Below, piece by piece: positions 3,368-26,373 of a stretch of DNA of 29,890 nucleotides. Every line of letters starts with the position of its first letter. Positions within the stretch are counted from its first letter, which is position 1. The DNA comes from a virus. The notes beneath the pieces are model-generated. The model did not search any database and was not told the DNA's origin. It worked only from the letters and a program-made list of their open reading frames with translations. A program made the translations under genes and the position numbers. The stretch spans positions 1 to 29,890 of IMG/VR virus record IMGVR_UViG_3300025030_000338; one strand, given 5' to 3'.

Positions 3368-4843
3368 CTAGTAGCCTGCGTATCTGTCTGCGGGTTGGTG
3401 TGTGTGCTGGGTCGTATTGGTGCTTCTGGTGCGTACAAAATGTGTGGGGTCGTAGTTCTTGCCGAGAATGAACAGCGTGCCGTACTGATCTGCCTCACAG
3501 ACATGACTCCATTTATTCTTGTCCGGCGCATCCTTGAACTTGCCATCGGCAGTCTTCTGCCGTGTATATCTGTACTTACTGCGCAGCCCCTCGATCAGCA
3601 TTTTACACTCGTCGTCATACTCAATGCCTGGTTCGCCGTCCGGCCACCAGTTGCGGAATGGTTCGTCCAGTGCGTTGATCCGTGCCGTAGGATCGTTGGT
3701 GGCGGCGCACTTGACCGCGTTGCCGGAGTCAGGCATATCGGTGACATATATCTTCTTCAGCAGCTTCCTGATTGAATCGTCATCAGTCTCATTTTGCCTC
3801 TTCCATGCAGGGTCGCCGATAAAGACCAGCGGGTTATTCGGGAAGTAGTTTTTGATCGTAGGCCAGAGTTTTGTGGAATTGAATGTTTTGAAACCCATGT
3901 CGAAGCCTACCGCCTCGCGCAGCTTTCTGAGCCGCCCGTCTCGCCCCAGCTGCATGAATACCGCCGCCGGGTTACGAGCTGAATCAATACCGACAATCAC
4001 AGGTAAAAAGGGGTCGATCTGCAAGCCGCGTTTCTTCCTCCGGTCATACTGAAACGACTTCTCATAGACCGGCTTGCCAGACTGGCTTTTGGCATATAGG
4101 CCGTGAACATAGACATCAATCCATGCCTGCGACTTGCCCTTGGAAAGTTCCTCATAATAGCCTGGTCGCAGATTCTCAATGTTCTCCGCTTCTGGTGATA
4201 ATCCGGATGGCTGCTTGAACGCATCAACCTGAATAATGGAGTTTTCTTCGTCCTCCACCTGTGGCAACCCCTCCATAAGTTTGTAGTGATCAGAGTCGAT
4301 CTCTGGAGGGTTGGTGGTGTAGATGATCCCTGAGCGATACCTGAATCCTTCCGGAAAAGCGTCGGACTTGCTCTGCGACGGAAATCGTCCACGTCTCCCC
4401 TCAAGGTCAGAGAGCAACGGCACTGGGATCTCGCGTGCTTCCTCGACCCAGACCCATGTTACCTGGAGGGAAAGAACGCGTTGCACGTCCTCGGGCGTAT
4501 CCAGTGAACGAAAAAGCCATTTGGAGCGCACGTCGTTGAAGCTGAACTCCATCGCCATGTCGCTCTCTTTCCACTTATATATCTCGACTGGTAGCAATTC
4601 GCGTACAGACGCCAGAGTTGTATCCTTTAGCTGCTGCTTGGTATTTCGTACTACAAGCATTACGCTTTCGCGCAGTCCATTTGCGCCTTGGGGCATCAGT
4701 ATGCTCTGGCGTAGCAGCTCGACAATCGCTCCGGAGGTTTTGCCCCCGCCGACTGGCCCCATTAGAGCACGCATAGAGTGATCTGAGAGCATAAACTTCC
4801 GCACCGTCTTGGATGGCGTATAGTTTAGCCCACCTATAGCCAT
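3368..4843 (-). CDS. terL: Terminase large subunit
   Basis: A 491-residue packaging motor combining ATPase and nuclease. Visible ATPase motifs are a Walker A (GPVGGGKTS, about residues 29-37), a Walker B (VTWVWVEEARE, about 128-138) and a coupling motif (YTTNPPE, about 175). The C-terminal RNase H-like nuclease shows VGIDSARNP, VFIGDP and an EADQYG segment that supply the expected acidic residues. It translocates DNA into the procapsid through the portal and cuts concatemers. The ATG overlaps the stop of the tiny upstream gene (TAATG) and is preceded by GAGGGG. Portal follows directly, as is usual. The C-terminal 25 residues are Thr/Arg rich and look disordered. Confidence 0.93.
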   Translation of the reverse strand: MAIGGLNYTPSKTVRKFMLSDHSMRALMGPVGGGKTSGAIVELLRQSILMPQGANGLRESVMLVVRNTKQQLKDTTLASVRELLPVEIYKWKESDMAMEFSFNDVRSKWLFRSLDTPEDVQRVLSLQVTWVWVEEAREIPVPLLSDLEGRRGRFPSQSKSDAFPEGFRYRSGIIYTTNPPEIDSDHYKLMEGLPQVEDEENSIIQVDAFKQPSGLSPEAENIENLRPGYYEELSKGKSQAWIDVYVHGLYAKSQSGKPVYEKSFQYDRRKKRGLQIDPFLPVIVGIDSARNPAAVFMQLGRDGRLRKLREAVGFDMGFKTFNSTKLWPTIKNYFPNNPLVFIGDPAWKRQNETDDDSIRKLLKKIYVTDMPDSGNAVKCAATNDPTARINALDEPFRNWWPDGEPGIEYDDECKMLIEGLRSKYRYTRQKTADGKFKDAPDKNKWSHVCEADQYGTLFILGKNYDPTHFVRTRSTNTTQHTHQPADRYAGY

Positions 4844-4956: not shown

Positions 4957-5186
4957 TTATCCATCCCTTCATACCCTTTCAGAATTAACCGCAACTGCTC
5001 CTCAGCGTCCTGACACAGTAAGAGATCCTGCGTCATCGTCTTGATTATGGTCGCCGACGAGGTAGTCTCGGGCAGAGCAGCCGTCCGGTAGATAGTCAAG
5101 CTGAGTGGTGGTGGCGCCGGGCAACGGGTTATGTAGATCGTATCCGTACAGCCGGTCATCAGTAAACACAGTAGGAGCCATCTCAT
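4953..5186 (-). CDS. Rz1: o-spanin, Rz1-like outer-membrane lipoprotein
   Basis: A 77-residue protein with an N-terminal signal ending in the lipobox LMTGC, so Cys13 would be lipidated. A proline run (PAPPPLSL, about residues 22-29) is typical of Rz1 proteins. The ATG at 5186 overlaps the stop of the i-spanin gene (ATGA) and has AAAGGAAGG upstream; the longer in-frame start at 5237 would bury the signal peptide. With the upstream i-spanin it should span the periplasm and fuse inner and outer membranes in the last step of lysis, implying a Gram-negative host. Confidence 0.85.
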   Translation of the reverse strand: MRWLLLCLLMTGCTDTIYITRCPAPPPLSLTIYRTAALPETTSSATIIKTMTQDLLLCQDAEEQLRLILKGYEGMDK

Positions 5187-6312: not shown

Positions 6313-6656
6313 TTACCCGCCTTTCCGGCAGACTGTGCTGCCTCGATAATGCCGTGCTTGATGGCCCACGCGATAACAGTCACCAAACCTGCACCAATCG
6401 CCGCCAGAAACGCGTATCCAACTGCCAGTATTCCGCCGTTGATGGTTCTGATAGTTCGCTTCAACAGGGCGATCTCAGCCGGCTCAAACCCCATCGCGCA
6501 TGACTTGTGACTTACCGCTTGCACGACCTTAGCGATAATTAGTATATCGTCACGCGTTAGTGCATTACGCCGTTTCTCACCACCTTCTGGTGCGTCAGTC
6601 AGTTCGTCCATTATGTCTTGTAGCTCTGTGAGGTCAATGTTGATCGGCCCTGGCAT
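6309..6656 (-). CDS. Membrane protein, probable holin
   Basis: A 115-residue protein with a soluble acidic N-terminal half and one strongly hydrophobic segment (about residues 75-98), followed by a short Ala/Lys tail. Its position immediately before the endolysin, with an ATGA overlap, is the usual holin position. GGAGG precedes the ATG. Single-span holins with long cytoplasmic N-termini exist but are less common, so the assignment is from context; the small membrane protein at 5536-5721 competes for the role. Confidence 0.62.
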   Translation of the reverse strand: MPGPINIDLTELQDIMDELTDAPEGGEKRRNALTRDDILIIAKVVQAVSHKSCAMGFEPAEIALLKRTIRTINGGILAVGYAFLAAIGAGLVTVIAWAIKHGIIEAAQSAGKAGK

Positions 6657-12871: not shown

Positions 12872-13833
12872 AACCCTAAAACCCTCTTAAATTGAGATAT
12901 GAAGCGCTCTATTTCCCCCCTGTTTATGGTATGACAGCCCGCCCTAACCTCACCTGTGTCTGCTATGGATGTCAACTCAAAATGCCCAAGCGGTATTTTG
13001 TGGCCGTTGGTGTGATATGGTGCAAAATGGATCAACCCTTGGGCCATTTTAACGTCATTTACATAATATTGCCGGGATTGCCAAAACCTAAGCGCCCTAA
13101 TTGCATGGTCAAGCGGGCATTCCGCACCCTGGGAGGTGACAACAACGTCGCCCTTGATAGTAATTTGATCCTGGCCATAAACCCTGAACGAGCTGGGGAA
13201 CCTGCCGGCGCCGGTCATCAACCATAAATTATACCGGTCTTGGTCCTCGATCCGTTGCAGCCGTGCAGCCTCTGCTCTGCGGGCCTGGGCGGCTTTTTCC
13301 TGCTCTGCTACCTGCTCTGCTACCTGGGCCGCGTACTGCGCAATCTCCTCAACGTTCACCGCCGGCAAGTCAGGAAGGTCTAAGCCGAACGCTTGACAAA
13401 CTTTGAATATCTCATCACGTCGAGCATTGTACACCTGCATGGCAGATAGTTTCGTGGCCTGTCGCCTGCGCGGCCCGAATGCGCCTTTGAGGTTGCGCTC
13501 TGCCTCATCAATTGCTGGTTGTATCATCTCCGCAATAGTTCGCCTGTATGACCTCCAGCGGGTGAATGCCGGCGTATAAAACCGGTTGATGTGTCGTGTC
13601 GCATACCGGGACGCACTAACATGTTTTGCTGTCCTGGGCGTCAGGCCCTCGCTGCTCAAAAATGCCCACGTATTGCCGCCGGTGTCCGTCTCCAGTTGGG
13701 CAATAACAGTAGTGTGCGAGTACAGCAATTTACCGTCAAAACTCACGTTTGAGCCGTTGCGGGCGCTGTCTTGGCTTTGGTGTGCCCAAATGTGGATCAC
13801 CTGGTCTGTCGGGTATACGTGTCTCTGTCTCAT
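12868..13833 (-). CDS. Conserved phage protein with long central helix
   Basis: A 321-residue protein of unknown function. The N-terminal part (residues about 10-60: VIHIWAHQSQ, then a GKLLYSHTTVIAQL segment) matches a domain common in phage and plasmid hypothetical proteins with the pattern 'gs.Yf.g..iYSYg.h..iA'. A central Ala/Glu/Gln/Arg-rich stretch (about 165-205) is probably a coiled coil. A C-terminal domain (about 210-321) contains GRFPSSFRVYG and an SQGAECPLDHA segment. It starts at an ATGA overlap with the pentapeptide-repeat gene. Confidence 0.65.
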   Translation of the reverse strand: MRQRHVYPTDQVIHIWAHQSQDSARNGSNVSFDGKLLYSHTTVIAQLETDTGGNTWAFLSSEGLTPRTAKHVSASRYATRHINRFYTPAFTRWRSYRRTIAEMIQPAIDEAERNLKGAFGPRRRQATKLSAMQVYNARRDEIFKVCQAFGLDLPDLPAVNVEEIAQYAAQVAEQVAEQEKAAQARRAEAARLQRIEDQDRYNLWLMTGAGRFPSSFRVYGQDQITIKGDVVVTSQGAECPLDHAIRALRFWQSRQYYVNDVKMAQGLIHFAPYHTNGHKIPLGHFELTSIADTGEVRAGCHTINRGEIERFISQFKRVLGL

Positions 13834-14708
13834 TTTCTCAACTCCTTTTCCATCGTAGATATAAAAATTAGTGCTGCTTTGTAGTCGGGTCTGTCTGTGC
13901 GTGCCGCTAGATCGTCGGGTGAGCCGGTGAAGCAGCCGGTTTTTAGTGTGGTTCGGCTCGCGGTAATAAATACCTGTAAACAGTCATTGCGACTACCGAT
14001 ATTGGTTATTGCAAAATATTTTAGCAGTAGCTCGTCTCCGTATTTAGCGCCGCTCAGGTTGGCTCCGCTCAGGTCGGAGCCGCTCAGGTTGGCTCCGCTC
14101 AGGTTGGCTCCGCTCAGGTTGGCACCTCCCAGGTAAGCACCTCTCAGGTTGGCTCCGCTCAGGTTGGCTCCGCTCAGGTAAGCACCTCCCAGGTAAGCAC
14201 CTCTCAGGTTGGTGTTGTACAAATCGGCGTTGCTCAGGTCGGCGTTGCTCAGGTTGGCACCTCTCAGGTCGGCGTTGCTCAGGTCGGAGCCGCTCAGGTT
14301 GGTGTTGTACAAATCGGCGTTGCTCAGGTTGGCACCTCCCAGGTAAGCACCTCCCAGGTAAGCACCTCTCAGGTTGGTGTTGTACAAATCGGCGTTGCTC
14401 AGGTCGGAGCCGCTCAAATCGGAGCCGCTCAGGTTGGCTCCGCTCAGGTCGGAGCCGCTCAGGTTGGCTCCGCTCAGGTTGGCTCCGCTCAGGTTGGCAC
14501 CTCCCAGGTAAGCACCTCTCAGGTCGGCGCTTCTCAGGTTGGCACCTCTCAGGTTGGTGTTGTACAAATCGGCGTTGCTCAGGTCGGCGTTGCTCAGGTT
14601 GGCACCGCTCAGGTCGGCGCTTCTCAGGTCGGCGCGTTGTCCTGTTGTTGGGGCAGCCAGCCATAATTTATGATTATCTAATATTTTAGTCAATTCTTGC
14701 GGTGTCAT
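13830..14708 (-). CDS. Pentapeptide-repeat protein
   Basis: A 292-residue protein. Residues about 26-220 are around 39 consecutive A(D/N)LXX pentapeptides (ADLSG, ANLSN, AYLGG, TNLRG and similar), predicted to form a right-handed quadrilateral beta-helix. The N-terminus (MTPQELTKILDNHKLWL) is a short cap. The C-terminal 70 residues (NDCLQVFITASRTTLKTGCF...) resemble the tail domain of other phage and cyanobacterial pentapeptide proteins. Some such proteins mimic DNA and protect gyrase, but nothing here proves that role. The DNA is a dense array of 15-bp near-repeats, so copy number can vary. AGGATTT precedes the ATG. Confidence 0.93.
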   Translation of the reverse strand: MTPQELTKILDNHKLWLAAPTTGQRADLRSADLSGANLSNADLSNADLYNTNLRGANLRSADLRGAYLGGANLSGANLSGANLSGSDLSGANLSGSDLSGSDLSNADLYNTNLRGAYLGGAYLGGANLSNADLYNTNLSGSDLSNADLRGANLSNADLSNADLYNTNLRGAYLGGAYLSGANLSGANLRGAYLGGANLSGANLSGANLSGSDLSGANLSGAKYGDELLLKYFAITNIGSRNDCLQVFITASRTTLKTGCFTGSPDDLAARTDRPDYKAALIFISTMEKELRK

Positions 14709-17384: not shown

Positions 17385-17723
17385 ATGAGTAAACCTGAAA
17401 CCATGATGATTGACAATGTAAAGTACGTACGTGATGACTCAGTCCAGCAAGTACCGCAACCGACTGGAGCCATTAAGATCGTCATCCTCCCACGCGGGTG
17501 GAACATGGTCGGCCACTTCTCTCAAGAGGGGTCGAAATGTAAGTTGGAGAAAGCCTCGGTTATACGCCGCTGGGGTACAACCCAAGGACTTGGTGAGCTA
17601 GCTTTAAAGGGGCCGCTGGCAGACACCATCCTTGACCCTTGCCCTCTGCCTGTGGAGTTCCACGAGTTGACCGTTATCGCCACCATGGGTTGTGTGGAGG
17701 GTGTATGGACATCCAGACTTTAA
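17385..17723 (+). CDS. DUF6948-like conserved phage protein
   Basis: A 112-residue protein. The sequence IKIVILPRGWNMVGHFSQEGS, followed by ASVIRRWGTTQGLGELALKG and VEFHELTVIATM, matches my recollection of a small phage family (DUF6948) with the RWGTTKGLGELA core. Biochemical role unknown. AAAGGAG lies 7 nt before the ATG. The last 19 nt overlap the start of the Gly-X repeat gene, suggesting coupling. Confidence 0.7.
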   Translation: MSKPETMMIDNVKYVRDDSVQQVPQPTGAIKIVILPRGWNMVGHFSQEGSKCKLEKASVIRRWGTTQGLGELALKGPLADTILDPCPLPVEFHELTVIATMGCVEGVWTSRL

Positions 17724-17944
17724 CCGAAGGTTTATGTCAGACCACGTACGGAAACGGCAACGGAAACGGCTATGGCTATGGCTATGGCTACGGCAACGGC
17801 AACGGCAACGGCTATGGCTACGGCAACGGCAACGGCGACGGTGATGGCGACGGCTATGGCAACGGCTATGGCAACGGCAACGGCGATGGCTACGGCGATG
17901 GCAACGGCGATGGCTACGGCGATGGCTACGGCTATGGCTTTTAA
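17705..17944 (+). CDS. Alternating Gly-X repeat protein, copy 1
   Basis: A 79-residue protein: a 15-residue head containing LTEGLCQTTYG, then a strict Gly-X alternation to the end in which X is only Asn, Asp or Tyr, closing with GYGF. The DNA is an array of GGCNAY hexamers. All frames are open through such an array, so the frame is fixed by the ATG with GGAGGG upstream and by the head shared with the second copy at 18420-18746. The stop is directly followed by the ribosome binding site of the next gene. A flexible or polyglycine-II-like structure, possibly metal-binding through DGDGD stretches, is conceivable. No family known to me. Confidence 0.7.
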   Translation: MDIQTLTEGLCQTTYGNGNGNGYGYGYGYGNGNGNGYGYGNGNGDGDGDGYGNGYGNGNGDGYGDGNGDGYGDGYGYGF

Positions 17945-17953
17945 GGAGATCTT

Positions 17954-18217
17954 ATGAACCAACCGGAATTAACCAAGAAACAACAGGACGCAGTAAAAAG
18001 GGTTGACCGATCACTCATGGACAACCAGCTCACCACCTACTCTGTAATGGAGAACCAACTTTACATGGCCCTGACAGCCGCCTTGGAGTCCGTTGAGATG
18101 GGTAAACAGATCGTGACCTGTTTGGACAGGGAAGAGGCGGAGAACAAGATCCTGCGTGAGCAGTTAGAGAAGGCTGACAAGATGATCGAGATGTTAAGGG
18201 GGGATGCACCCATATGA
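17954..18217 (+). CDS. Small coiled-coil protein
   Basis: An 87-residue protein. The C-terminal half (DREEAENKILREQLEKADKMIEMLRG) is a clear coiled coil. AAGGAG precedes the ATG, and the stop overlaps the next start (ATGA). Function unknown. Confidence 0.72.
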   Translation: MNQPELTKKQQDAVKRVDRSLMDNQLTTYSVMENQLYMALTAALESVEMGKQIVTCLDREEAENKILREQLEKADKMIEMLRGDAPI

Positions 18218-18387
18218 TCGGACCAAGCACTGTAACCGAGCAGAACTATCCGGAGTTTAAAAAGCTCTATAAGAAAGCGGCAGATAAAAAGCTGGAGTCC
18301 TTCATGTTTCAAAGCAGTGAAGTTTTGACCGGCTACGCAAAATATCTCTGCGAGTATGTAGAAACGCAGCGAGGGTGGAAGCCGTGA
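18214..18387 (+). CDS. Small conserved phage protein, unknown function
   Basis: A 57-residue ORF starting in an ATGA overlap, with GGGGGG upstream. The sequence YPEFKKLYKKAADKKLESFMFQSSEVLTGYAKYLCEYVE has the shape of a widespread small phage protein (FKxxYxxAxxxxxxxFxFxxxxxLTxYAKYLxEYL). Helical; role unknown. Confidence 0.7.
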   Translation: MIGPSTVTEQNYPEFKKLYKKAADKKLESFMFQSSEVLTGYAKYLCEYVETQRGWKP

Positions 18388-18419
18388 TTGTTTAGCTATT
18401 TTACAGGAGGGTACTATAC

Positions 18420-18746
18420 ATGAGTGATGAGGAGATGGAGCAGGTTGGGTGCAAATGTTACCGGCCAGGTGATCAAGGTTTTGAAGCGCTGGCTGCGCGG
18501 ATTACACCGCTGGAGTTAACCGAAGGTTTATGTCAGACCACGTACGGTAACGGCGACGGCAACGGCGACGGTGATGGCAACGGCAACGGAAACGGCTATG
18601 GCAACGGCAACGGCTATGGCTACGGCAACGGCAACGGCGATGGCTACGGCAACGGAAACGGCTACGGAAACGGCGACGGTGATGGCAACGGCTATGGCAA
18701 CGGCGATGGCTACGGCGATGGCGATGGCAACGGCTATGGCTTTTAA
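18420..18746 (+). CDS. Alternating Gly-X repeat protein, copy 2
   Basis: A 108-residue paralogue of the protein at 17705-17944. A distinct 30-residue N-terminus (MSDEEMEQVGCKCYRPGDQG...) is joined to the shared LTEGLCQTTYG head and an alternating Gly-(Asn/Asp/Tyr) array ending in GYGF. The DNA is conserved across the head and again across the stop and following GGAGATCTTA, so a block was duplicated. AGGAGG lies 9 nt before the ATG. The array is richer in Asp than copy 1. Function unknown. Confidence 0.7.
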   Translation: MSDEEMEQVGCKCYRPGDQGFEALAARITPLELTEGLCQTTYGNGDGNGDGDGNGNGNGYGNGNGYGYGNGNGDGYGNGNGYGNGDGDGNGYGNGDGYGDGDGNGYGF

Positions 18747-18755
18747 GGAGATCTT

Positions 18756-19102
18756 ACGAGCCGACCAAAACTTGCCAAAGAGCTAACTACTTCCGAAAGC
18801 TGGCCGCAGGGCTGGAGTACACGGATACAGCAAAACATCTTTGGCACAGGATTTATATCAAAACATTTACATCAGCAAGCACAGCCCCCGTATTATCGAG
18901 GCTTTGGGCGGAAGACACAAGCCTGATACATACCGACATCACCACTTACGTACAGACGGGAGTTTGGACAGGATTTAATCAGGAGTTTTTACCGACTGTT
19001 GCACTGTCTACACAGATAACATTAGCTGCTGGACAGTCTATGCTCGCGGTCTGTATTTCTGGCGGACCTATGACGGATGTTGAGCTGAGGTTGCACACGT
19101 AA
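18756..19102 (+). pseudogene. Probable broken gene: long frame without a usable start codon
   Basis: At the place where copy 1 has the ATG of the coiled-coil gene, this copy has ACG after the same GGAGATCTT ribosome binding site. The frame from ACG stops after 56 codons, but another frame (18758-19102, 115 codons) is open and coherent (KLAAGLEYTDTAKHLWHRIYIKTFT..., ending TDVELRLHT) with no upstream start. Joining the first 10 or so codons of the ACG frame to the second frame near 18785 gives a plausible original protein. I infer a start-codon loss plus frameshift. The beta-rich C-terminus resembles small phage structural domains, but no family is recognised. Its TAA lies in an attC-like half site. 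Confidence 0.5.
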
Positions 19103-19943: not shown

Positions 19944-20131
19944 GCACTGCCAAGGAACTCAGAGAGGCCCGCGAAGCTGCGGGCCTCAGCATGAAGCAAG
20001 CGGCGGAGAACTCCGGCACACCATACCGAACTTGGCAGAGCTGGGAAACCGAAGGTCGCGACGGTCGCAGACCTCCGGGGATTGCTTTTTCCTGGCTGGC
20101 CCTGTGGGTGAAGCAACATCAAGGATCATAA
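19940..20131 (+). CDS. XRE/Cro-CI-type helix-turn-helix regulator
   Basis: A 63-residue protein starting at the GTG that overlaps the upstream stop (GTGA). AKELREAREAAGLSMKQAAENSGTPYRTWQSWETEG is a classic XRE fold: the first helix, a GLS turn, the AA-containing recognition region and the TWQxWE segment (residues about 4-38). A WLALW stretch near the C-terminus may form a dimer contact. It probably represses its own promoter at the two palindromes upstream. The TAA stop lies in the 5' box of an attC-like site, so regulator, partner gene and promoter form one cassette-like unit. Confidence 0.85.
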   Translation: MSTAKELREAREAAGLSMKQAAENSGTPYRTWQSWETEGRDGRRPPGIAFSWLALWVKQHQGS

Positions 20132-20184
20132 CGAGTTGAGGCACACCAGACGGCCTTATGGTCTGGTGCTGCCGATGGTTAGCC
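20126..20184 (+). other. attC: attC-like recombination site, 59 bp
   Basis: Outer boxes TCATAAC (20126-20132) and GTTAGCC (20178-20184) pair over TAAC/GTTA. Spacers GAGTTGA and GATG are unpaired. Inner boxes GGCA (20140-20143) and TGCC (20170-20173) pair, with one extrahelical C at 20169. The stem CACCAGAC/GTCTGGTG is perfect, with the 9-nt loop GGCCTTATG. This is the cleanest of the set. It follows the stop codon of the XRE gene, and the next gene's ribosome binding site starts 6 nt after the 3' box. Bases 20127-20179 recur identically at 21247-21299. Confidence 0.78.
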
Positions 20185-20201: not shown

Positions 20202-20468
20202 ATGGGCGACATGGGTGATTTTTGGAAAGATGTCAAACCGGAAATGCAAGCCAGAAGCAAAGACAAACGTGCCAACAATCGGGAACAACCCGCGCAATAC
20301 CTAACAAATGTAGGCATTCCTTTCACTTCCAATAACCACGGCGCACACCTGATAGTCGAGGGCAAAGACTGTTTCATTGATTTCTGGCCGGGAACTGGCA
20401 AATGGATCAGCCGCAACAAAGAATCCGGTTTCGGAGTGCGGAACCTAGTTAATTTTATTACTGGCTAA
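20202..20468 (+). CDS. Small conserved phage-type protein
   Basis: An 88-residue protein with AGGAGG 5 nt before the ATG. The second half (YLTNVGIPFTSNNHGAHLIVEGKDCFIDFWPGTGKWISRNKESGFGVRNLVNFI) matches a small phage family with the core GIxFxSxNxGAHLIV...DFWPGTGxW; function unknown. The stop lies in the attC-like element at 20463-20522, so this gene occupies a complete one-gene cassette between two such sites. Confidence 0.75.
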   Translation: MGDMGDFWKDVKPEMQARSKDKRANNREQPAQYLTNVGIPFTSNNHGAHLIVEGKDCFIDFWPGTGKWISRNKESGFGVRNLVNFITG

Positions 20469-20522
20469 CGACTAAGCGCACCGGCAAGCGGAGCGCAGAC
20501 CGTGTGCCGCGACTGGTTATGT
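20463..20522 (+). other. attC: attC-like recombination site, 60 bp
   Basis: Outer boxes GGCTAAC (20463-20469) and GTTATGT (20516-20522). Spacers GACTAA and GACTG do not pair. Inner boxes GCG/CGC (20476-20478, 20508-20510) are followed by CAC/GTG and CGG/CCG, with two extrahelical bases on the 3' arm (C at 20507 and T at 20503). Two such bases on one arm also occur in the aadA-type attC as I remember it. The loop contains a GCGGAGCG motif. Confidence 0.7.
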
Positions 20523-20578
20523 GGCCGGAAGTGGCATACAAATTTATTTTCACTCGCCGCATTATTTCTCTTGCACAA

Positions 20579-20592
20579 CATAACTAGTTATG
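20579..20592. promoter_or_regulatory. Perfect 14-bp palindrome CATAACTAGTTATG
   Basis: A perfect inverted repeat 40 bp before the next gene. It could be an operator, or a collapsed attC-like site, since it consists of the two outer boxes (ACATAAC and GTTATGA) separated by only TA. Confidence 0.5.
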
Positions 20593-20631
20593 ATAAATAT
20601 TGACTATCAAATCAATTCGGAGGTAGTCGCC

Positions 20632-21041: not shown

Positions 21042-21251
21042 ATGTATATCATCAATGGTAAATATTGGGCTTCATCTCTGCCGGATTTGGGGCCAAAAGA
21101 CTTGTATATTGACGTTACTTACTTGATCGGAACTTTGACTCCTGAAATGTTGGTAAAGCTCCGCGCTGCGATTAACGGCAAACTGAGCAAGCGCAAAATA
21201 ACACCGGAACAACAGGCAAAAATGCAGGCCGCAAGGCAAAAGGTCACATAA
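21042..21251 (+). CDS. Small protein ending in an attC-like site
   Basis: A 69-residue protein. The ATG follows GGAGG (located in the end of the previous gene) by 10 nt. The C-terminus is helical and basic (LSKRKITPEQQAKMQAARQKV). The TAA stop lies in the 5' box of the attC-like element at 21246. No family known. Confidence 0.62.
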   Translation: MYIINGKYWASSLPDLGPKDLYIDVTYLIGTLTPEMLVKLRAAINGKLSKRKITPEQQAKMQAARQKVT

Positions 21252-21302
21252 CGAGTTGAGGCACACCAGACGGCCTTATGGTCTGGTGCTGCCGATGGTG
21301 CC
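21246..21302 (+). other. attC-like site, second copy, damaged 3' box
   Basis: Bases 21247-21299 are identical to 20127-20179, including inner boxes, extrahelical C, stem and loop, but the 3' outer box reads GGTGCC instead of GGTTAGCC. A 2-bp loss removes the GTTA core that would be cut and joined. It directly precedes an ATG. Probably a decayed or inactive site. Confidence 0.7.
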
Positions 21303-24229: not shown

Positions 24230-24367
24230 ATGCTGAGACTGAAACCTAACGGAGTGCTGGAGAAGGTCAAAGGGCCGACGGTGTTAGAACTAGATGAGAA
24301 ACTTGATTGCGCCCGACGCAGACAAAAGGAAGCACGTAAAAGAGTGCAGAAGGAGGTTGATAGGTGA
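24230..24367 (+). CDS. Small basic helical protein
   Basis: A 45-residue ORF following the zinc ribbon and overlapping the next gene (GTGA). The C-terminal half (CARRRQKEARKRVQKEVDR) is strongly basic and helical, fitting nucleic-acid binding. It carries the ribosome binding site of the nuclease gene inside its end. Confidence 0.6.
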   Translation: MLRLKPNGVLEKVKGPTVLELDEKLDCARRRQKEARKRVQKEVDR

Positions 24368-26373
24368 TCTATGCCCACCAAATAACATTCCAGCAGCTCC
24401 AAGCGTCCAAGGAGGCAGTCTGCGATCTTCAGGGCCGGATGATCGGCGGTCCTGATACCAAGATGGAATCCGACTGGACGAAGTGGGTGTTGTGGCAGAA
24501 AGCGATCCAGAAAGCCCCTGTTGGCTCAGTACCACCTGATGTTATGGCGTATTTTCAGAAGACCAAAGGACTGACAAAGGTGCCTACACGAATCGATGTT
24601 GAGGATGCAATTTTAATAACACCAGCACCACCACCATACAATATCGAAAGCCAAGGACTCCAAATGACTCAAGCCAAACCCTTCACCCCGCCAAGATTCA
24701 CATGGTCCTACACCTCAATGGCTGAGTTCCTGACCTGTCCCGCGCAGTGGGCCGCCAAGCGCTATTTCAAGACCATCAAAGATGTCGAGTCTGAGGCGAT
24801 GCGGGTCGGCAACATGATCCATGAGACAGCGGAACACTATCTGAAGTCCAAGATTGGCCAGACCTTCAAACCATCCAGCATCCACACACAGTACCTGCCG
24901 GTTGTCCAGAAATACTGCGACGCCTTGGTCGCCTCCGGCGCCGAACTGCACGTCGAGCGCGAGATGTGCTTCGACAAGCAGATGAAGGTATCAGCATGGA
25001 AGGCTTGGGACACTGTATGGGTCAGATCGAAAGCGGACGTACTTGCCCGAAAAGACCAGCGCCTCTCGATTGTAGATTGGAAAGGTTTGGCACTAGACAC
25101 ACCACTACCCACCCCAACTGGGTGGACAACTATGGGTGATGTGTGTGAGGGAGATAAAGTTTTCGGTGCCGACGGCAAACCGTGCACTGTTACCGGGAAA
25201 TCTAAAATAAAAAATTTACCTTGTTATGAGTTGACCTTTTGTGATGGATCTACAATAACATCCGATTGTGAGCACCTATGGGAAGTTCGGGAGCGTACAA
25301 GCAAAAATGTATATAAACCTAGAATAGTATCCGCCCACGATTTATGTGCTCTAACTGAATTTAAGAAGCTAAATGTGCGTTTATCACAACCACTACTGCC
25401 CGTCGGCGAACCAAGTGGCTTACCCTTCTATACTATCGGGTGCTGGCTTGGAGACGGCAAACACACAGACGGCTCGATTAGCAAAGGCGACCAAGGTATA
25501 TTCGACCACATTATTGAAGAGGGCCTGTTTGTAAAAGAGCCTCAGAAGTGTATAGAAGGTAAGTGCCCTACGCGGACGGTTATCGGGCTTAGAACGCTAC
25601 TTGGCAAAGAAGGATTACTTGGGAATAAACACATCCCAGCGAGGTGGCTCAGATTTTCGTATGAGGATAGGGTAGCGCTCCTCCAAGGTTTAATGGACAC
25701 TGATGGGTCATGGAACTTTACACGGACGCAAGCAGTATTTTGTACTGTGAACAAATCTTTCGCTGACGAAGTTTTTGAGTTATTGGTGACTCTAGGCCAA
25801 CGCCCTACCATACACACTATTGATGGTTTTGGTTTCGGAAAAGCGGTCAGATCATATGATATAACATTCACCCCCATAGGACTCACACCATTTCGGGCAA
25901 GTATTAAAAAAGAGAAGTTTGAAAAGTACCCTTCTAAAAACCCTCGTACGTATCGCCAGATCAAGTCGGTAAAGTTGGTGCGCTCTGTACCGACCCAGTG
26001 CATCAAGGTGGACTCTTCCGACAGCATGTATTTGTGCGGAAAAGCGATGATCCCCACGCACAACACAGGCAAGTATAAAGAAGACTTCCTCCAGCTCAAG
26101 ATGTTCGCAGTGTTCGCTGCTCTGACCCCAGGCTTTGAGGACGTTCAGGAGTTCGACCCGAAGTTTATCTTCACCAAAGAGGCAGCACCCAAAAACATTC
26201 TGCGTCTGCCCGAGCCGATAAAGAGGAGTGAACTCAAAGGTGTACTCGGGGAGATCCTCGGCGTGGTGCGTAGGATGGAGGCTGCCTGGGAGGGTGGTAA
26301 TTTTCCCGCAAAGCGGAACGGGTTGTGCCGCAATTACTGCGCAAATACGGACTGCGCACATTGCGGCGGTTAG
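24364..26373 (+). CDS. RecB/Cas4-like PD-(D/E)XK nuclease interrupted by an intein
   Basis: A 669-codon ORF starting at GTG with GGAGG 7 nt upstream. Residues 1-100 form a separate N-terminal part of unknown role. The nuclease follows: SYTSMAEFLTCP (about 115-126), GNMIHETAEHY (His153), an RSKADV acidic motif (Asp225) and the catalytic SIVDWK-TGK split by the intein between Lys240 and Thr568. Cys125 and the C-terminal cluster CRNYCANTDCAHC suggest a 4Fe-4S cluster as in AddB and Cas4 nucleases. After splicing the protein has 342 residues. It probably processes DNA ends in recombination or replication. An internal ATG at residue 101 could also give a nuclease-only form. Confidence 0.85.
   Translation: MIYAHQITFQQLQASKEAVCDLQGRMIGGPDTKMESDWTKWVLWQKAIQKAPVGSVPPDVMAYFQKTKGLTKVPTRIDVEDAILITPAPPPYNIESQGLQMTQAKPFTPPRFTWSYTSMAEFLTCPAQWAAKRYFKTIKDVESEAMRVGNMIHETAEHYLKSKIGQTFKPSSIHTQYLPVVQKYCDALVASGAELHVEREMCFDKQMKVSAWKAWDTVWVRSKADVLARKDQRLSIVDWKGLALDTPLPTPTGWTTMGDVCEGDKVFGADGKPCTVTGKSKIKNLPCYELTFCDGSTITSDCEHLWEVRERTSKNVYKPRIVSAHDLCALTEFKKLNVRLSQPLLPVGEPSGLPFYTIGCWLGDGKHTDGSISKGDQGIFDHIIEEGLFVKEPQKCIEGKCPTRTVIGLRTLLGKEGLLGNKHIPARWLRFSYEDRVALLQGLMDTDGSWNFTRTQAVFCTVNKSFADEVFELLVTLGQRPTIHTIDGFGFGKAVRSYDITFTPIGLTPFRASIKKEKFEKYPSKNPRTYRQIKSVKLVRSVPTQCIKVDSSDSMYLCGKAMIPTHNTGKYKEDFLQLKMFAVFAALTPGFEDVQEFDPKFIFTKEAAPKNILRLPEPIKRSELKGVLGEILGVVRRMEAAWEGGNFPAKRNGLCRNYCANTDCAHCGG
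25084..26064 (+). mobile_element. Class 3 intein with LAGLIDADG homing endonuclease
   Basis: Residues 241-567 (327 aa) of the nuclease ORF. The block A region LALDTPLPTPTGW starts with Gly instead of the Cys or Ser nucleophile. The class 3 WCT set is complete: Trp306 in block B (CEHLW), Cys546 in block F (QCIKVD) and Thr568 as the first residue after the intein. Block G is MIPTHN. The endonuclease has both motifs, TIGCWLGDG (about 357-365) and LLQGLMDTDG (about 439-448). It sits exactly in the catalytic DWK-TGK motif. Base composition is more AT-rich than in the exteins, consistent with separate origin. Confidence 0.88.

Follow-up and report, generated by a model that had tools for sequence, protein, structure and literature searches.

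A nuclease gene in this virus is interrupted, within its catalytic motif, by 327 in-frame codons, and the locus raises the question of what the insert is, whether it is likely to splice and to move, and how it came to lie there. The window analysed here is a whole 29.9-kb virus record (29,890 nucleotides). In its left half, the minus strand carries terminase, portal and tail-type genes; in its right half, the plus strand encodes a family A DNA polymerase, a dNMP kinase and the nuclease itself. A megablast search of the right half against phage records gave no nucleotide-level match. The nuclease reading frame is open throughout, and the insert sits between DWK and TGK. The boundaries that an initial annotation had placed at 25084-26064 (residues 241-567) proved exact, and computed removal of these residues leaves a nuclease of 342 amino acids.

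Judged from their sequence, the exteins are a RecB/Cas4-like PD-(D/E)XK nuclease, meaning Cas4-like and not Cas4. The Pfam family PDDEXK_1 (PF12705) matches the ORF over its cut-off (E=5e-8), an intein-free homologue matches the PHROG exonuclease family phrog_69 (E=5.5e-23), and the residues that are invariant in an 18-sequence alignment (Gly149, His153, Asp225, Asp238 and Lys240) correspond to the RecB-type motifs. A true CRISPR Cas4 (TIGR00372) was rejected on scores of 24.4 bits for the intein-free homologue and 15.8 for the precursor, against an NCBIfam cut-off of 65. Solved structures gave no sequence match to the empty nuclease, and no geometry was taken from the precursor model, which was only moderately confident (pLDDT 74.7). 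The intein lies directly 3' of the codon for the motif III catalytic lysine, Lys240, in agreement with the early reading of an insertion in the catalytic motif of a Cas4-like nuclease. As the Gln/aromatic helix and the cysteine cluster sit in the C-extein, the active site of the nuclease would be split before splicing.

The insertion point was confirmed by comparison with inteinless relatives, a check that the initial annotation had proposed. Two metagenomic viral contigs encode intein-free versions of the nuclease: L001, with 90% extein identity, reads DWKTGK across the junction, and L002, with 72% extein identity, reads DWKSGK. A second search of viral contigs for relatives of the empty nuclease returned only these two. 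The features of the locus are collected in Table 1.

Table 1. Coordinates of the intein-containing nuclease gene and its features in the window.
Feature	Position	Strand	Remarks
RecB/Cas4-like PD-(D/E)XK nuclease ORF, intein-containing	24364..26373	+	669 codons, GTG start
Shine-Dalgarno-like AAGGAGG	24350..24356	+	5' of GTG start, read from sequence
N-extein, residues 1-240	24364..25083	+	His153, Asp225, Asp238-x-Lys240; invariant columns, 18-sequence alignment
Putative co-conversion tract, codons 221-240	25024..25083	+	Replaced relative to intein-free L001
Possible extra tract past insertion, up to 9 nt	26065-26073	+	Window compared with L001
Motif III, Asp238-Trp-Lys240	25075..25083	+	Lys240 is the -1 residue; N-terminal splice junction
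Class 3 intein, 327 aa, Gly1-Asn327	25084..26064	+	Protein residues 241-567
His64 (block B:10), catalytic	25273..25275	+	Aligned to class 3 inteins
Trp66 (block B:12), W of WCT	25279..25281	+	Protein Trp306; aligned to class 3 inteins
LAGLIDADG motif 1 (block C), YTIGCWLGDG, Asp124	25429..25458	+	Model helix 115-124
LAGLIDADG motif 2 (block E), LLQGLMDTDG, Asp205/Asp207	25678..25707	+	Model helix 193-207
Cys306 (block F:4), C of WCT, predicted initiating nucleophile	25999..26001	+	Protein Cys546
Thr325 (G:5, T of WCT; protein residue 565), His326, Asn327	26056..26064	+	Alignment
Thr+1 of C-extein (protein residue 568), predicted second nucleophile	26065..26067	+	
C-extein, residues 568-669	26065..26373	+	Gln/aromatic helix and C-terminal cysteine cluster

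All residues expected of a class 3 intein are present (Gly1, His64, Trp66, Cys306, Thr325, His326 and Asn327 in intein numbering, then Thr+1). These comprise the WCT triplet, a residue 1 that is no nucleophile, His B:10 and the C-terminal Asn, and the C-terminal junction reads IPTHN/T, with the slash marking the splice site. Against solved structures (phmmer), the intein matched the class 3 DnaB inteins 6rix, 6riy and 6bs8 with E values down to 9.5e-29, and its blocks B, F and G align with these proteins, so that Trp66, Cys306 and Thr325 fall on their equivalents in 6rix and 6bs8. Because of this match, and the exact absence of the insert from a close homologue, the insert is not a product of chance. 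An AlphaFold2 model of the intein, made from a 26-sequence alignment (pLDDT 94.4), comprises a HINT domain and a LAGLIDADG domain. The splicing domain of this model compares to 6bs8, the MsmDnaB intein, with Z 23.4 and 1.2 Å over 124 residues at 43% identity; the fold is likewise that of 6rix (Z 22.9; rmsd 1.2–1.6 Å across the two), and the catalytic Cys-His-Thr plus Trp are common to all three. These mycobacterial DnaB inteins differ, however, in being mini-inteins without an endonuclease, in having Ala1, and in their site within the DnaB P-loop (GK/S). Over the whole chain, the HINT and LAGLIDADG architecture resembles that of PI-SceI, the Sce VMA intein (Z 27.7 over 321 residues). PI-SceI is a class 1 intein (Cys1) that resides in the vacuolar ATPase, and the window intein differs from it in both respects.

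The acidic residues of both LAGLIDADG motifs (Asp124; Asp205/Asp207) are kept, as first read from IGCWLGDG and LLQGLMDTDG, and Pfam LAGLIDADG_3 matches at E=6e-4, slightly under its gathering score. This layout is typical, since LAGLIDADG motifs occur in 82.5% of 1701 class 3 inteins (PMC7891396). By its residues and matches, then, the insert is a genuine intein of class 3 whose LAGLIDADG endonuclease looks intact, as originally proposed. One residue of the proposed WCT set must be replaced: Trp306 and Cys546 stand, but Thr568 belongs to the C-extein, at position +1, and the WCT threonine is residue 565. The glycine at residue 1 had also been presented as unusual. Splicing in class 3 is initiated by Cys F:4, which is obligatory in tested class 3 inteins, and a nucleophile at residue 1 is not required (PMC5222942). 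Since the class 3 route starts at Cys F:4 and not at residue 1, Gly1 is no obstacle to splicing; its reading as a mechanistic oddity was rejected, as a non-nucleophilic residue 1 is normal in class 3 and Gly1 is mostly a clade trait.

The initial annotation treated hosts of the RecB/Cas4 type as unfamiliar for class 3 inteins, but 40 intein-containing RecB/Cas4-like exonucleases have been described in C1 mycobacteriophages, all class 3 and all interrupted at one point of the PD-(D/E)XK motif (Kelley et al. 2016, PMC5050341). The nuclease of ArcherS7, a C1-type phage (Bixzunavirus; L006), has the identical insertion point (ELK/S...PTHN/T) and both LAGLIDADG motifs. Its intein is therefore like that of the window in class, site and endonuclease motifs, but differs in sequence (31-32% identity), in having Ser1, and in falling outside the Gly1 clade in free trees. 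Inteins closer to ours are found at the window's insertion point in Cas4/RecB-like exonucleases of DiMaria and Zeeculate (Fromanvirus), Frankenweenie (Streptomyces) and Rollin (Pseudomonas), all with Gly1 and the WCT residues. These are 44-48% identical to the window intein over the intein, whereas their exteins, annotated as exonuclease or hypothetical, are merely 20-28% identical to the window's. Catera is a C1 phage and, with matching gene numbers, its Gp206 probably belongs to the same RecB/Cas4-like nuclease group. Efficient splicing is recorded for the Gp206 intein, which is of class 3 (PMC3196547). Host type and insertion site are thus already known, and the element is of a described kind, not a new one. 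What is new here, and of modest added value, is a Gly1 clade bound to this site and an upstream replacement of about 60 bp relative to L001.

This replacement is seen when the window is aligned with L001. Identity is about 86% over 3.6 kb but about 53% in the 60 bp adjoining the insertion; by codons, it is 90% (101-219), 56% (220-240) and 85% (244-342). The simplest reading is that the tract probably records co-conversion of donor flank along with the intein, and that the intein was probably acquired recently, after the split from L001. Such a pattern could also arise from a loop that evolves fast, or from an exchange that took place in L001 and not in the window. Codons 229-234 are indeed variable (RKDQRL / KNGTKL / KKGNKI), and there is a second low-identity stretch at codons 85-106, in a linker. 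Yet some of the differences in the tract are synonymous changes in codons of invariant residues, Ser222 and Asp238 among them, and the differences end at the insertion or at most 9 nt beyond it, which argues against such readings. Moreover, L001-L002 identity is steady in the tract, at 71%, and the pattern of shared informative sites is reversed there: elsewhere, the window and L001 share 136 and L001 and L002 share 36, whereas inside the tract the counts are 5 and 15, respectively (Fisher p = 2e-6). As sharing between L001 and L002 dominates inside the tract, the changed sequence is the window's and not L001's. The comparison comprises three sequences and about 20 codons, part of them a variable loop, and we judge these other explanations to be unlikely, without being negligible. 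Broad searches yielded no candidate donor for the tract. The GC3 of the intein (0.45, vs 0.63-0.65 in the exteins) points to a foreign source. The near relative without the intein, together with the polarised tract, allows natural sequences to be used for testing homing into the active site of a nuclease.

To place the element, we gathered class 3 inteins in viral contigs, in phage records and in bacterial genomes. Because Gly1 inteins served as seeds for this collection, the proportions that follow are not population estimates. We see Gly1 in 21 of the 22 distinct nuclease-site inteins, with ArcherS7 (Ser1) the exception, compared to 3 of 139 elsewhere, where Ala1 prevails. When residue 1 was omitted from the tree, the first set's 20 Gly1 nuclease inteins grouped in one clade (support 100/99), and in an enlarged set 21 such inteins, the window's included, again form a clade (SH-aLRT 98). 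The prevalence of Gly1 at this site thus mostly reflects shared descent. Among the members are those of the DiMaria, Frankenweenie and Rollin phages, of metagenomic viruses and of a Nocardioides MAG (L089), and every insertion lies directly 3' of the catalytic lysine, in divergent nucleases. The placement of ArcherS7 outside the clade is weak, and an AU test did not reject a single clade (p = 0.835). An independent invasion by the ArcherS7 intein, to which the free trees point, is not claimed, as the single-clade constraint was likelier in a quick search and the ArcherS7 branch is long.

Of 231 pairs, 229 show higher identity between the inteins than between the exteins (medians 43% and 18%). 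This is consistent with horizontal spread among diverged nucleases, although unequal rates, with the intein evolving more slowly, could contribute. On balance, we lean towards one Gly1 lineage specialised on the PD-(D/E)XK catalytic-lysine codon, which would have moved horizontally, with short co-conversion tracts, between nucleases of about 18% identity. Its range would take in at least one bacterial MAG as well as phages whose hosts are Gram-positive or Gram-negative. If so, the endonuclease would tolerate very divergent targets, reading mainly the D-x-K/T codons. The clade provides material for studying how a LAGLIDADG endonuclease tracks a catalytic motif through highly diverged genes. With the window, the RecB/Cas4-nuclease inteins published from C1 mycobacteriophages gain a counterpart in an unrelated virus lineage.

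Some further inteins were seen in these searches. Bacterial genome contigs gave nothing with a single-intein query and 80 matches with an alignment query. One match, in the Nocardioides MAG (L089:1970-4000), is a class 3 intein with Gly1 that follows the catalytic lysine in a RecB-like nuclease; nearly all the others are at P-loop (DnaB-type) sites. A class 3 intein in an Actinoallomurus genome (L101) has Ala1 and a C-terminal TCN rather than THN. Two nuclease-site class 3 inteins (L014:2501-3481 and L015:195-1175) have Cys+1 (DLK/G...PTHN/CPG); the Bvi IcmO intein was the sole class 3 intein with Cys+1 known at the time of an earlier report (PMC5222942).

On all the evidence, the RecB/Cas4-like nuclease of this phage very probably carries a homing intein of class 3 that is active and was acquired after the split from L001; from residues and fold, we infer the following route for its splicing and mobility. 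Cys306, assisted by His64, would attack the Lys240-Gly1 bond to give a thioester branch at block F. The N-extein would then be transferred to Thr+1, and cyclisation of Asn327 would free the intein. An O-to-N shift would join DWK to TGK and restore the PD-(D/E)XK active site, making nuclease activity dependent on splicing. The LAGLIDADG domain is predicted to cut intein-free nuclease genes around the DWK/TG codons, with repair copying the intein in. The window copy, presumably a member of the Gly1 lineage specialised on the catalytic-lysine site, would have arrived in this way with its flank of about 60 bp from a divergent donor.

The intein may in addition act as a switch, in which a redox-sensitive Cys306 would tie splicing and activation of the nuclease to conditions in the host cell. 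The insertion divides the nuclease active site, and splicing conditional on oxidative stress is reported for mycobacterial DnaB inteins (PMC6195587). Yet the sequence holds no regulatory feature and the intein-free relatives manage without an intein, which makes such a role improbable. Less probable still is decay of a complete-looking intein that has lost splicing or DNA cleavage, so that the nuclease is inactive. One class 3 intein is described as a pseudogene (PMC3196547), and the window intein comes from one genome, its nearest relatives (at most 48% identity) being too distant for a selection test. That pseudogene had, however, lost His B:10 and Cys F:4, whereas the window intein keeps all catalytic residues; its frame is open, its LAGLIDADG acids are intact, its model is confident and its acquisition was apparently recent. 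A class 2 route, in which Thr+1 attacks directly and bypasses Cys306, would suit a non-nucleophilic residue 1, as class 2 inteins have, but is very improbable given the full WCT triad, the close class 3 structural match and the obligatory Cys F:4 of tested class 3 inteins (PMC5222942). Finally, the idea that the in-frame insert, continuous with the nuclease, is a genuine domain of that family is refuted by the uninterrupted motif in both intein-free homologues, where a true domain would be present in all members; the element also occurs in DnaB- and terminase-type proteins.

Elsewhere in the window, a perfect direct repeat of 53 nt (20127-20179 and 21247-21299) lies slightly 5' of an ORF start at each copy and contains a strong hairpin (-21 kcal/mol, z -3.1). 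A short intergenic element is common to the window (20465-20595) and L001, where it is repeated (4153-4237, 5059-5114 and 6423-6478). The minus-strand ORF at 13830-14708 has repeats with a 15-nt period across about 680 bp and matches the uncharacterised repetitive families phrog_7713 and phrog_923, and weakly a tail fibre. A 24-nt tandem repeat and two blocks, about 0.8 kb apart, of related 12/18-nt repeats are found at 783-939 and 17678-18777.
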